This document shows, one piece after another, positions 9,481 to 36,821 of a stretch of 64,000 nucleotides of DNA. Each line of letters starts with the position of its first letter. Position 1 is the first letter of the stretch. Where the stretch lies: NCBI GenBank assembly GCA_025499705.1, contig JAFMVE010000026.1:1-64000 (forward strand). The letters are read 5' to 3'. The notes under the pieces are model-generated. The model saw nothing but the letters and a program-made list of their open reading frames with translations. It did not search any database and was not told the DNA's origin. Made by a program: the position numbers and the translations under genes. The stretch is from Carboxylicivirga caseinilyticus. Lineage in GTDB: Bacteria > Bacteroidota > Bacteroidia > Bacteroidales > Marinilabiliaceae.

Positions 9481-9554
9481 GGTCTGGTAGTTCAGCTGGT
9501 TAGAATGCCGGCCTGTCACGCCGGAGGTCGCGGGTTCGAGTCCCGTCCAGACCG
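9481..9554 (+). tRNA. tRNA-Asp (GTC), copy 1
   Basis: A 74-base cloverleaf: acceptor arms GGTCTGG and CCAGACC, D-arm with AGCTGGTTAGA, anticodon stem CCGGC/GCCGG around CTGTCAC (anticodon GTC), T-arm CGGGTTCGAGTCCCG, and discriminator G. The 3' CCA is not encoded. First of four identical copies. Confidence 0.98.
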
Positions 9555-9592
9555 CTAGTTTAGAAAGAAGATTTTGTGATAATCCAAAAGAG

Positions 9593-9666
9593 GGTCTGGT
9601 AGTTCAGCTGGTTAGAATGCCGGCCTGTCACGCCGGAGGTCGCGGGTTCGAGTCCCGTCCAGACCG
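9593..9666 (+). tRNA. tRNA-Asp (GTC), copy 2
   Basis: Identical in all 74 bases to copy 1, with anticodon GTC and no encoded CCA. A 38-base AT-rich spacer separates it from copy 1. The spacers differ, so the repeat unit is the tRNA itself. Confidence 0.98.
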
Positions 9667-9689
9667 CTTTCTTTGACATTATCATTTTA

Positions 9690-9763
9690 GGTCTGGTAGT
9701 TCAGCTGGTTAGAATGCCGGCCTGTCACGCCGGAGGTCGCGGGTTCGAGTCCCGTCCAGACCG
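9690..9763 (+). tRNA. tRNA-Asp (GTC), copy 3
   Basis: Identical to copies 1 and 2 and separated from copy 2 by a 23-base spacer. Anticodon GTC, discriminator G. Confidence 0.98.
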
Positions 9764-9785
9764 CAATCTTTTTTAAAACATCTTA

Positions 9786-9859
9786 GGTCTGGTAGTTCAG
9801 CTGGTTAGAATGCCGGCCTGTCACGCCGGAGGTCGCGGGTTCGAGTCCCGTCCAGACCG
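9786..9859 (+). tRNA. tRNA-Asp (GTC), copy 4
   Basis: Identical to the other three copies and 22 bases after copy 3. A terminator begins seven bases past its end, closing the tRNA transcript. Confidence 0.98.
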
Positions 9860-9865
9860 CAAAAA

Positions 9866-34548: not shown

Positions 34549-35733
34549 ATGAAAGTATTAATTACGTTATTAATGGGATTATTTTCTGTGGCAATAATTG
34601 CACAGGATAAATCCGAAGGATATCAATTTGAGACAATCTATGATCTGGATGCGACATGTGTAAAAGACCAATATCGTTCAGGAACCTGTTGGAGCTTTTC
34701 CGGATTAGGCTTTTTTGAATCAGAGATGATCCGATTGGGTAAGAATCCAGCAAACCTTTCTGAAATGTTTGTGGTTCGTCACTGTTATTCTGATAAGGCT
34801 GAAAAATATGTAAGACTGCATGGATCTTTGAATTTTGCTGGTGGAGGTGCTTTTCATGATGTTGTTTATGTTTTGAAGAACTACGGCATGGTGCCGGAAG
34901 ACGTATACTCAGGACTAAACTACGGCGAAAAGAATCACGTTCATGGCGAGATGGATGAAGTATTAAAAGGGTATGTAGATGGTGTTTTAAAAAATAGGAA
35001 TAAGAAACTTACAACAGCCTGGAAAAATGGTTTAGAAGGTATTTTGGATGCGTATTTAGGAGAGTTGCCAGAAACTTTTGAGGTAGAAGGTAAAACATAC
35101 ACTCCACAAAGGTATGTGAAAGAAGCTATGGGAATCAATCCTGATGATTATATTCAGGTTTCATCTTACTCGCATCATCCATTCTATTCAAAATTTATTA
35201 TAGAAGTACCTGATAACTGGATGTGGGGAGAAGTATATAATGTGCCTTTAGATGATTTAATGAGTATTTTCGAAAATTCCTTGAAAAGCGGTTATACTGT
35301 TGGATGGGCAGCTGATGTTAGTGAAAAGGGATTCTCTTATAGAAATGGATTAGCCATTGTTCCTGAAAGTAATATAGAAGAATTAGCCGATTCGGAACAA
35401 TCTAAGTGGGAAGCAATGACAGAAGCTGAGCGTCAAAAAAGATTGTATAGTTTTGATGAACCTGTTACAGAAATGAAAATTACGCAGGAGATTCGTCAGG
35501 AGGCATATGATAACTATGAAACAACTGATGATCATGGAATGCAAATTACCGGTATGGTAAAAGATCAGAATGGAACCATTTATTATAAGGTTAAAAATTC
35601 ATGGAATACTAATAATAAATATGAAGGTTATTTGTATGCTTCAGATGCGTTTGTTAGATATAAAACCATGTCAATAATGATTCATAAGGATGCTTTAACT
35701 AAGGAATTGAAAAAGAAATTAGGGATTAAGTAA
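34549..35733 (+). CDS. Exported C1B-family cysteine peptidase (bleomycin hydrolase/PepC-like)
   Basis: A 394-residue papain-like peptidase of the bleomycin hydrolase family. The catalytic Cys is in RSGTCWSFSG (about residue 48), the His in TDDHGMQITG and the Asn in VKNSWNT. An N-terminal signal-like segment (MKVLITLLMGLFSVAIIAQ) shows it is probably exported, whereas classical PepC is cytosolic. It is shorter than the usual 440-450 residues. It ends with a strong terminator, and the 155-base gap before it suggests its own promoter. Confidence 0.92.
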   Translation: MKVLITLLMGLFSVAIIAQDKSEGYQFETIYDLDATCVKDQYRSGTCWSFSGLGFFESEMIRLGKNPANLSEMFVVRHCYSDKAEKYVRLHGSLNFAGGGAFHDVVYVLKNYGMVPEDVYSGLNYGEKNHVHGEMDEVLKGYVDGVLKNRNKKLTTAWKNGLEGILDAYLGELPETFEVEGKTYTPQRYVKEAMGINPDDYIQVSSYSHHPFYSKFIIEVPDNWMWGEVYNVPLDDLMSIFENSLKSGYTVGWAADVSEKGFSYRNGLAIVPESNIEELADSEQSKWEAMTEAERQKRLYSFDEPVTEMKITQEIRQEAYDNYETTDDHGMQITGMVKDQNGTIYYKVKNSWNTNNKYEGYLYASDAFVRYKTMSIMIHKDALTKELKKKLGIK

Positions 35734-35757
35734 AACTTATCAAAAATGCTAAGAGAA

Positions 35758-35784
35758 GGGCGATTTACAAATCGTCCTTTTTTT
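35758..35784 (+). terminator. Terminator of the C1B peptidase gene
   Basis: GGGCGATT (35758-35765) pairs with AATCGTCC (35770-35777), one G-U pair, loop TACA, followed by T7. Confidence 0.88.
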
Positions 35785-35937
35785 ATGCCAATTCAATATT
35801 TCAATATCTTTCTCTAATGAAAGCAAGAGTTAATTTTTTAATTGAATTTAATTGTGTGTAACCGTTTGGCTCGGTGTGTAATAGTAATTAGGTAATGAAT
35901 TATTTCAATATACAAGGGTAAAGATTTTTTAAAAAAG

Positions 35938-35968
35938 TTTCCATTTTTAAAAAAAAGTTCCATATTTG
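35938..35968 (+). promoter_or_regulatory. Putative promoter of the candidate non-coding RNA
   Basis: TTTC (35938-35941), a 19-base spacer and CATATTTG (35961-35968), each one base off the Bacteroidota consensus. The predicted start, near 35973, coincides with the first base of a long hairpin. Confidence 0.55.
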
Positions 35969-35972
35969 CATA

Positions 35973-36199
35973 TGTTAAAATGTGTAAACAAAAGATGATA
36001 TTTAGTTGTTTACATTAACAAAAGGAACAAGATTACATTGTTGAGTTAAAAAAGGTTAATTAATTAAATTAAGGTTGCTAAGTTTATAACCTTTTTAAGT
36101 CAATTTAGTATAAAGAGTTATGAAGCTTTCTTCATAAGTTAGGGTTAAGGTTAGGTTGAAGAAGGAATGTTCGAAATGTCGGGCATTCCTCTTTTTTTT
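35973..36199 (+). ncRNA. Candidate structured non-coding RNA, about 227 nt
   Basis: There is no credible gene here, but four hairpins in order. (1) 35973-36020: 15 base pairs (TGTTAA + TGTAAACAA against TTGTTTACATTAACA) with a four-base bulge. (2) 36046-36098: TTAAAAAAGGTTA against TAACCTTTTTAA, one bulge. (3) 36118-36137: TTATGAAG/CTTCATAA, perfect. (4) 36163-36190: an 11-pair terminator stem with T8. A G-rich unpaired stretch (36138-36162) lies between hairpins 3 and 4. A promoter sits at the right place. The next coding gene is on the other strand, so this is not an mRNA leader. I do not recognise a known family. Confidence 0.55.
36163..36199 (+). terminator. Intrinsic terminator of the candidate RNA
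   Basis: AGGAATGTTCG (36163-36173) pairs with CGGGCATTCCT (36180-36190), two G-U pairs, loop AAATGT, followed after one C by T8 (36192-36199). Confidence 0.9.
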
Positions 36200-36257
36200 A
36201 ACAGTTATTCGAACAATTAGATTGGATTAGATGTTATATAATAGAAGAATTTATTCA

Positions 36258-36318
36258 TAGATTTGGATTTTAAGTTAGGGTTAGATGAAAAGAGAGGATA
36301 GCAGAGTCCTCTCTTTTT
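36258..36318 (+). ncRNA. Second short candidate RNA unit with terminator
   Basis: TAGATTTG at 36258-36265 matches the -7 consensus. The stretch after it begins with TAAGTTAGGGTTA (36271-36283), identical to 36135-36147 in the upstream RNA, and ends in a terminator. If transcribed alone it would be only about 45 bases; it could instead be a second end of the longer transcript. No -33 box is clear. Confidence 0.35.
36288..36318. terminator. Bidirectional terminator between RNA locus and macro-domain gene
   Basis: AAAAGAGAGGA (36288-36298) pairs with TCCTCTCTTTT (36307-36317) around an eight-base loop. T-rich on both strands, it also sits two bases past the end of the macro-domain gene. Confidence 0.85.
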
Positions 36319-36320
36319 AT

Positions 36321-36821
36321 TTAAACATTAAGCTTTTCTTCGTATATCCTGAAATTTTCAAGATCAAATACTGCAAAAATAAGCTCGTTCGGTACCTTAC
36401 TCGATTCTAAAAAATGTCTAACCGTATTTATTGCTATGTCAGCAGCCAATGATTTGGGATATCCATAAACCCCAGTGCTAATATTTGGAAATGCAATTGA
36501 CCAGAGATTATGTTTTTGTGCTAATAATAGACTATTGTAGTAACAATTGGCAAGCAATACATCTTCGTTATCATTTCCTCCATGCCATACAGGACCTACT
36601 GTGTGTATCACAAATCTGGACGGTAAGTTGTATCCTTTAGTTATTTTAGCCTCACCCGTAGGACAGCCATTCAGATTTCGGCATTCTTTTAGTAATTCCG
36701 GGCCGGCTGCACGATGTATGGCACCGTCAACACCTCCACCTCCTAATAATGAAGAGTTAGCTGCGTTTACTATGGCATCTACCTTTAGTTGGGTAATATC
36801 GGTTTGTATTAATCGTATCAT
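36321..36821 (-). CDS. Macro-domain protein (O-acetyl-ADP-ribose deacetylase-like)
   Basis: A 166-residue single macro domain. Ligand-binding motifs: [21 protein letters not shown] (split: DIT at 8-10, [18 protein letters not shown] at about 20-37), HTVGPVW, and [10 protein letters not shown]-type loop [17 protein letters not shown]. MacroD-type enzymes remove ADP-ribose from proteins or hydrolyse O-acetyl-ADP-ribose. It is a single-gene unit. Confidence 0.93.

Follow-up and report, generated by a model that had tools for sequence, protein, structure and literature searches.

The window analysed here is a 64,000-nucleotide stretch of the forward strand of contig JAFMVE010000026.1 from Carboxylicivirga caseinilyticus, and the subject is its gap at 35734–36320, which is bordered on one side by a C1-family peptidase gene and on the other by a macro-domain gene of the opposite strand, with pheT beyond the latter. 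The original prediction, made from the letters alone, had placed in this gap a new structured RNA with a promoter, four hairpins and a terminator. The gap was indeed gene-free, with no open reading frame (ORF) of 60 or more amino acids in 35734–36320. A riboswitch or messenger RNA (mRNA) leader was dropped as a candidate because the gene 3′ of the gap lies on the other strand, as had been noted. The results presented below indicate that the gap very probably holds an RNA gene, and probably two tandem small-RNA genes, RNA A (~36119–36199) and RNA B (~36245–36320), of a multi-copy family in marine Bacteroidota.

The short form of RNA A spans 36119–36199 on the plus strand, with its 5′ end placed from the promoter boxes, and scores 86.3 bits with R2, a covariance model derived from 28 such A-type units. 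It is preceded at 36086–36115 (plus strand) by a two-box promoter resembling those of extracytoplasmic function (ECF) sigma factors, which consists of ATAACCTTT (36086–36094) and, 16 nucleotides after its AAC, AGTATAAAG (36107–36115). The seed, at 36124–36161 on the plus strand, is antisense to a translation start; its reverse complement reads CTTCAACCTAACCTTAACCCTAACTT-ATG-AAGAAAGCT (..CCTAACCTTAACCCTAACTT-ATG-AAGAAAG), that is, a 5′ untranslated region (UTR) plus ATGAAGAAAGCT. Hairpin 3 (36118–36137, plus strand; TTATGAAG-CTTT-CTTCATAA) was present in the minimum free energy (MFE) fold and in the pairing probabilities as the perfect eight-pair stem that had been described. The 5′ arm is a copy of the target start TTATGAAG and hides the seed's start-codon part, which is paired in hairpin 3, while the G-rich part is mostly unpaired (probabilities of about 0.5–0.95). 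A mini-ORF in hairpin 3 (ATG-AAG-CTT-TCT-TCA-TAA) was set aside: it is readable in the Carboxylicivirga copies, and several paralogues inspected by eye have no start codon. RNA A closes with an intrinsic terminator with T8 (36163–36199, plus strand), seen in the fold. The predicted hairpin and T-run at 36163–36190 were the sole site that a simple terminator scan flagged in 35500–36700 (shuffles, mean 0.4).

The second promoter, which stands right before the G-rich stretch, and the whole second unit at ~36245–36320 lay beyond the original account. RNA B (36245–36320, plus strand, from the fold) has its own two-box ECF-like promoter at 36210–36240 on the plus strand (CGAACAATT, then TGTTATATA 17 nucleotides after AAC), a seed at 36248–36290 that is antisense to ..CCAAATCT-ATG-AATAAA, and a terminator hairpin at 36285–36320, which has 15 pairs in the fold and was missed by the simple scan. 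A covariance search of the gap against Rfam returned no family at its gathering score, in agreement with the earlier statement that this is not 6S, tmRNA, RNase P or SRP RNA. Relaxing the threshold to E 10 gave 20 matches in 591 bases, mostly chance ones, and the FopS family (RF04319) appeared among them as tandem matches at 36125–36201 (23.3 bits, RNA A) and 36247–36325 (22.9 bits, RNA B). The gap is read as two RNA units because each FopS-matching stretch ends in a terminator hairpin.

Conservation was followed by a DNA search of 40 relatives. The genus set comprised the own genome and 13 others, mostly labelled Carboxylicivirga and one Saccharicrinis. RNA A was found in 12 of the 13 other genus genomes (the exception being G007), with diverged copies in three further genomes of the same family (G022, G014 and G017). 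Identical bases stood at 59 of the 61 positions in 36107–36167 across 14 aligned loci, and RNA B was conserved together with RNA A in all 14. RNA A has the C1 peptidase and/or pheT nearby in 13 of these loci; the G004 stretch showed neither gene. Breznakibacter, SZUA-609 and SZUA-582 have pheT-near copies as well, and the same two genes flank a diverged pair in G017. This conservation across species and genera strongly supports an RNA gene that has a promoter and a terminator of its own, so that part of the original prediction holds. In the alignment of relatives, proposed at the time as a search for compensating changes, two terminator pairs of RNA A changed on both sides among the 14 loci, hairpin 3 was invariant in all of them, which makes a covariation test impossible, and hairpin 1 was not conserved. 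Within the same window, four tandem tRNA-Asp (GTC) genes, its sole tRNAs, were observed at 9481–9860.

Upstream of RNA A, the near-consensus promoter that had been claimed stood in altered form. A simple scan found no plus-strand sigma-70-type promoter at 35938–35970, and the sigma-70 reading was rejected; what lies there is a putative housekeeping promoter of the Bacteroidota type (35937–35968, plus strand), whose −7 box CATATTTG at 35961–35968 is of the CATATTFG type and is invariant in the 14 aligned loci, as is TGTTAAAA shortly 3′ of it. Since the box CATATTTG is invariant, a long form of RNA A of ~220 nucleotides may start from this promoter.

The invariance of this box, together with the folding of the region, also speaks for the rival proposal of the original prediction, in which a single long structured RNA occupies 35978–36199 and its fold is the functional element. 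This stretch folds at −53.7 kcal/mol against −35.6 ± 3.6 kcal/mol for 200 dinucleotide shuffles (z −5.0, no shuffle as low), and all four predicted hairpins are in its MFE fold. Hairpin 1 (35982–36015, plus strand) folds in its own sequence with 12 pairs in the MFE, not the 15 described, at z −2.9 for the 5′ part; no conservation of it was found over the 14 loci, where the sequence is variable and gapped and z ranges from −3.8 to +0.5. Hairpin 2 (36041–36105, plus strand) fared better, as its stem appears in the MFE of every one of the 14 loci, at z −1.4 to −3.6, the outer pairs varying by clade (UGA:UCA vs CGC:GCG), in an alignment shifted by one base between the clades, but it overlaps the second promoter. 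The fact that the outer pairs of this inverted repeat are clade-specific despite the promoter overlap could reflect either a structure of the long form or a DNA operator. Set against the single long RNA are the lack of conservation of hairpin 1 and the Breznakibacter and SZUA-609 paralogues, which have a promoter right before the seed and terminator without hairpins 1 and 2, and we regard this proposal as unlikely. An RNA gene is strongly supported, but "new structured RNA" is not the most fitting label, because the antisense seed and the terminator are the most constrained parts, hairpin 1 is unconserved, a promoter overlaps hairpin 2, and two RNAs are present, not one, with a layout and seed like those of FopS.

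Among the named genomes, a pattern scan found 30 matches to the seed, spread over 25 stretches, ten of the matches being in SZUA-609. By eye, all 30 were in small RNA (sRNA) orientation and were followed by a hairpin with a copy-specific stem, the record of one (L281) ending inside the stem; zero matches for either seed pattern were found in viral contigs. Of nine A-type units seen in Breznakibacter xylanolyticus (G014), L048 carries three and L049 six, and every unit has a terminator of its own. The R2 model matched 35 of 36 genomes of the family, the own one included, and 6 of 24 genomes of other families, weakly (E 2e-4 or worse). RNA B is among its matches in several relatives, in the own genome it has a match (C87) that is antisense to an apparent coding start with the terminator absent, and in G010 and G013 it matches in reverse on the start of the 39-amino-acid peptide described below; the last two observations mean that R2 match counts are not sRNA counts.

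The promoter boxes recur with these copies. After counting identical 70-base units once and dropping one unit cut by a record end, 23 of the 28 unique A-type units carry AAC-N16/17-[ACG]GT[AT] upstream of the seed at a constant spacing, compared with a mean of 0.18 and at most 3 in shuffles. Nine units of this set are pheT-near orthologues, related by descent; the boxes are present in 14 of the 19 others. The second box here is AGTATAAAG; Breznakibacter has CGTTAAAG or CGTTATAAG and SZUA-609 has AGTAATAG. Three of the five box-less units are Breznakibacter copies that, by eye, have housekeeping-like TATATTTG or TATCTTTG instead. For RNA B, AAC-N16/17-NGT[TA] is found in 14 of 14 loci, a count made without a shuffle control. 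An AAC at −35 is a mark of ECF promoters. Judged from these boxes, RNA A and RNA B are probably switched on by an ECF-type sigma factor. A CGT box at −10 has been assigned to ECF factors in Flavobacterium psychrophilum, where one promoter of the SM6 class precedes the putative regulatory RNA Rfp11 (PMC9723704); CGT occurs in the Breznakibacter copies and AGT in Carboxylicivirga RNA A, and the likeness to Rfp11 is one of description.

Two further classes were identified. A third class, whose seed TTTCATAGATTTGGGTT..AGGTTA resembles that of the A-type units, has 58 matches in 13 of the 14 genus genomes against 0 for the reversed pattern, and a strict GG[CT]A-N6-TTGC box of sigma-54 type lies 10–25 nucleotides upstream of the seed in 20 of 30 unique copies from 28 loci (shuffles: mean 0.02, maximum 1). 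The fourth class is a tandem pair on the own contig C134, also present in G014; by eye, its seed is preceded by housekeeping-like boxes, for example CATCTTTG or CATATTTG. On the minus strand of L088, which is part of C134, this candidate pair has the seed TTCATAGATTT, and at least four congeners have conserved relatives.

A candidate partner of the RNA A seed emerged from the genus set. A seed pattern search gave 23 matches in 13 of the 14 genomes, 13 being RNA A itself (reversed-pattern control, 3), and this search and a side match in BLAST led to a single gene start, seen in three congeners. The gene encodes a 39-amino-acid peptide with a hydrophobic C-terminal half, which is present in 8 of the 14 genus genomes (E 9e-9 or better) and has no match in Pfam; sigma-54-type GG-N10-GC boxes were seen by eye upstream of it in all eight congeners (L123–L130). 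Duplexes between RNA A and the peptide start reached −45.3 (G006), −48.2 (G010), −51.4 (G013), −35.7 (G011), −36.5 (G009) and −33.2 kcal/mol (G007), compared with means of −12.4 to −14.5 kcal/mol for shuffled seeds. A sequence-only model made from the peptide-start sites and two antisense seeds recovers its own input by construction; of the next 11 loci inspected, 7 begin an ORF, with duplexes of −22.8 to −38.3 kcal/mol. As a separate observation, a stretch at ~1496–1560 of L258 (G001 C148) pairs with RNA A at −38.3 kcal/mol and lies after the stop of a long ORF and before a terminator-like hairpin, with no ORF after it; it could be a 3′-UTR sponge.

Targets in the own genome were scored over 1382 ORF starts in 2.02 Mb (36% of the genome), and those of RNA A and RNA B are weakly supported. 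RNA A paired with 31 starts at −24 kcal/mol or lower (mean 7.5, maximum 12 in 10 full dinucleotide shuffles), and RNA B with 70 starts at or below −20 (shuffle mean 23.7, at most 37). The best RNA A target is the start of a 517-amino-acid protein with a signal-peptide-like N-terminus (L159, −31.8), and a similar protein in G002 pairs at −32.0. Signal peptides were called in 42% of the top 60 RNA A targets, against a mean of 32% and a maximum of 43% for shuffled seeds, by a crude classifier that is positive for 40% of all genes; given this classifier and the overlap with shuffles, no claim about signal peptides is made.

The closest known system is FopS, a paralogous sRNA family of Bacteroides thetaiotaomicron with canonical sigma-ABfr promoters, which pairs at the start region of susC, blocks its translation in this way and is antagonised by the RRM protein RbpB (PMC11697453). 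The own genome encodes one RRM_1 protein. Among the papers found, the Bacteroidota sRNAs that block start regions are GibS and FopS, both described from Bacteroides (PMC7366714, PMC11697453). FopS shares with the RNAs studied here a length of ~70–80 nucleotides, a start-region antisense seed, a Rho-independent terminator and many copies per genome. The seed beside an intrinsic terminator and the multi-copy character were both found in our family, and UUCAU..UUAG..UUAAGGUUA is in register in a Breznakibacter unit, to which the FopS model aligns full-length (38.6 bits). Unlike FopS, which is described as single-stranded 5′ of the terminator, RNA A of this genus bears a hairpin that covers the seed where it matches the start codon, and the boxes here are ECF-like and sigma-54-like, unlike the sigma-ABfr promoters. 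GibS of B. thetaiotaomicron shares the R1 seed with FopS and represses at translation initiation regions, but has two seeds and a PM2 promoter (PMC7366714, PMC11697453), and its likeness is drawn from descriptions, not from sequence.

A true FopS orthologue by descent, with the same susC-type glycan transporter targets, would account for the agreement in seed, length and copy number with the published outline (PMC11697453) and for the sub-threshold FopS scores at both RNAs and family-wide. The best own-genome match (32.5 bits) lies elsewhere than the gap, and in nine genus genomes the eight matches listed at E 0.05 or better comprise four RNA B, three third-class units and one (own C65) that is neither. 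Across 60 family genomes, a single match exceeded the FopS cut-off (L368, G086 C41:116–182, 76.8 bits); it lies at a contig start in a genome outside this genus, where contamination is possible. This scarcity, the promoters and the moderate pairing of own-genome SusC starts given below make such an orthologue improbable. RNA A and RNA B are taken as FopS-like start-codon-blocking sRNAs outside the curated FopS family, perhaps homologous to FopS.

The interpretation that we consider likely is that the gap encodes two tandem trans-acting sRNAs that block translation starts and belong to a multi-copy Marinilabiliaceae family with varied promoters. It is favoured by the conservation, copy number, promoter boxes, terminators and complementarity, all of them observed, and also by the FopS matches below the cut-off and the single RRM_1 protein; transcription, the 5′ ends, the sigma factors and translational repression are inferred. 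That there is no RNA gene, and that neighbour-gene terminators, repeats and chance made up the pattern, is very improbable: converging genes flank the gap, so terminators are expected, and hairpin 2 could be a DNA palindrome, but the C1-peptidase gene is already provided with a separate hairpin and a T-run that ends near 35786, and promoter boxes, seed and terminator recur jointly in many copies and contexts.

Several observations weigh against two start-blocking sRNAs of this kind. Both RNAs miss the FopS gathering score of 56 bits, and the second box of the Carboxylicivirga copies is AGTA, not CGT. G004 (−22.8 kcal/mol) and G008 (−17.4 kcal/mol) have RNA A and the 39-amino-acid peptide with weak pairing, G007 has the peptide site and no RNA A in the DNA search, and in the own genome the peptide lacks a clear homologue, the best weak match (E 0.73) pairing at −24.8. 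SusC-family starts, scored for 30 of the 57 listed matches, pair only moderately, at best −24.5 with RNA A and −26.1 with RNA B. With the TTCAT core of RNA A fixed and the rest shuffled, the 29 starts at −24 or lower compare with a mean of 17.7 (maximum 24), and with the 5′ TTCAT part of RNA B fixed, 49 compare with 30.6 (maximum 39); since the excess shrinks in this way, the anti-start core is most of the signal. A start-independent site scan of the 2.02 Mb found RNA A no better than two shuffles, and target claims are therefore restricted to start regions.

Under the two-sRNA interpretation, each RNA would present a seed antisense to the bases before the AUG, the AUG and the first codons, with the intrinsic terminator directly after it. 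An ECF-type sigma factor would turn on RNA A and RNA B, the long form of RNA A possibly arising from the upstream housekeeping promoter. The RNAs would then pair with mRNA start regions, those of envelope and membrane proteins among them, and ribosome entry would be blocked as by FopS, with the RRM protein perhaps acting as a partner or antagonist. Other members would be under sigma-54 or housekeeping promoters, whereby different signals would feed similar start-blocking seeds.

MicA and RybB, which belong to the enterobacterial sigma-E response, are ECF-controlled, Hfq-dependent sRNAs that pair at the starts of outer-membrane protein mRNAs. We give about even chances to the proposal that the Marinilabiliaceae family, wired to three sigma classes (ECF-like, sigma-54 and housekeeping), is the Bacteroidota counterpart of this envelope circuit, its best conserved target, the 39-amino-acid membrane peptide, itself having a sigma-54-type promoter. 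The phylum differs, no sequence relation is claimed, and the ECF control and repression are here deduced.

The locus would give FopS a marine Marinilabiliaceae relative with an almost frozen seed, a syntenic pheT copy and promoters of three sigma classes, and this promoter wiring is what looks new. The 39-amino-acid peptide start offers a concrete target with a duplex of ~30 pairs. Bacteroidota are described in the FopS report as a phylum without classical sRNA chaperones (PMC11697453). If the interpretation is true, it becomes testable how stress is linked to translation in such a phylum, and whether the FopS mode of action predates the gut Bacteroidaceae.
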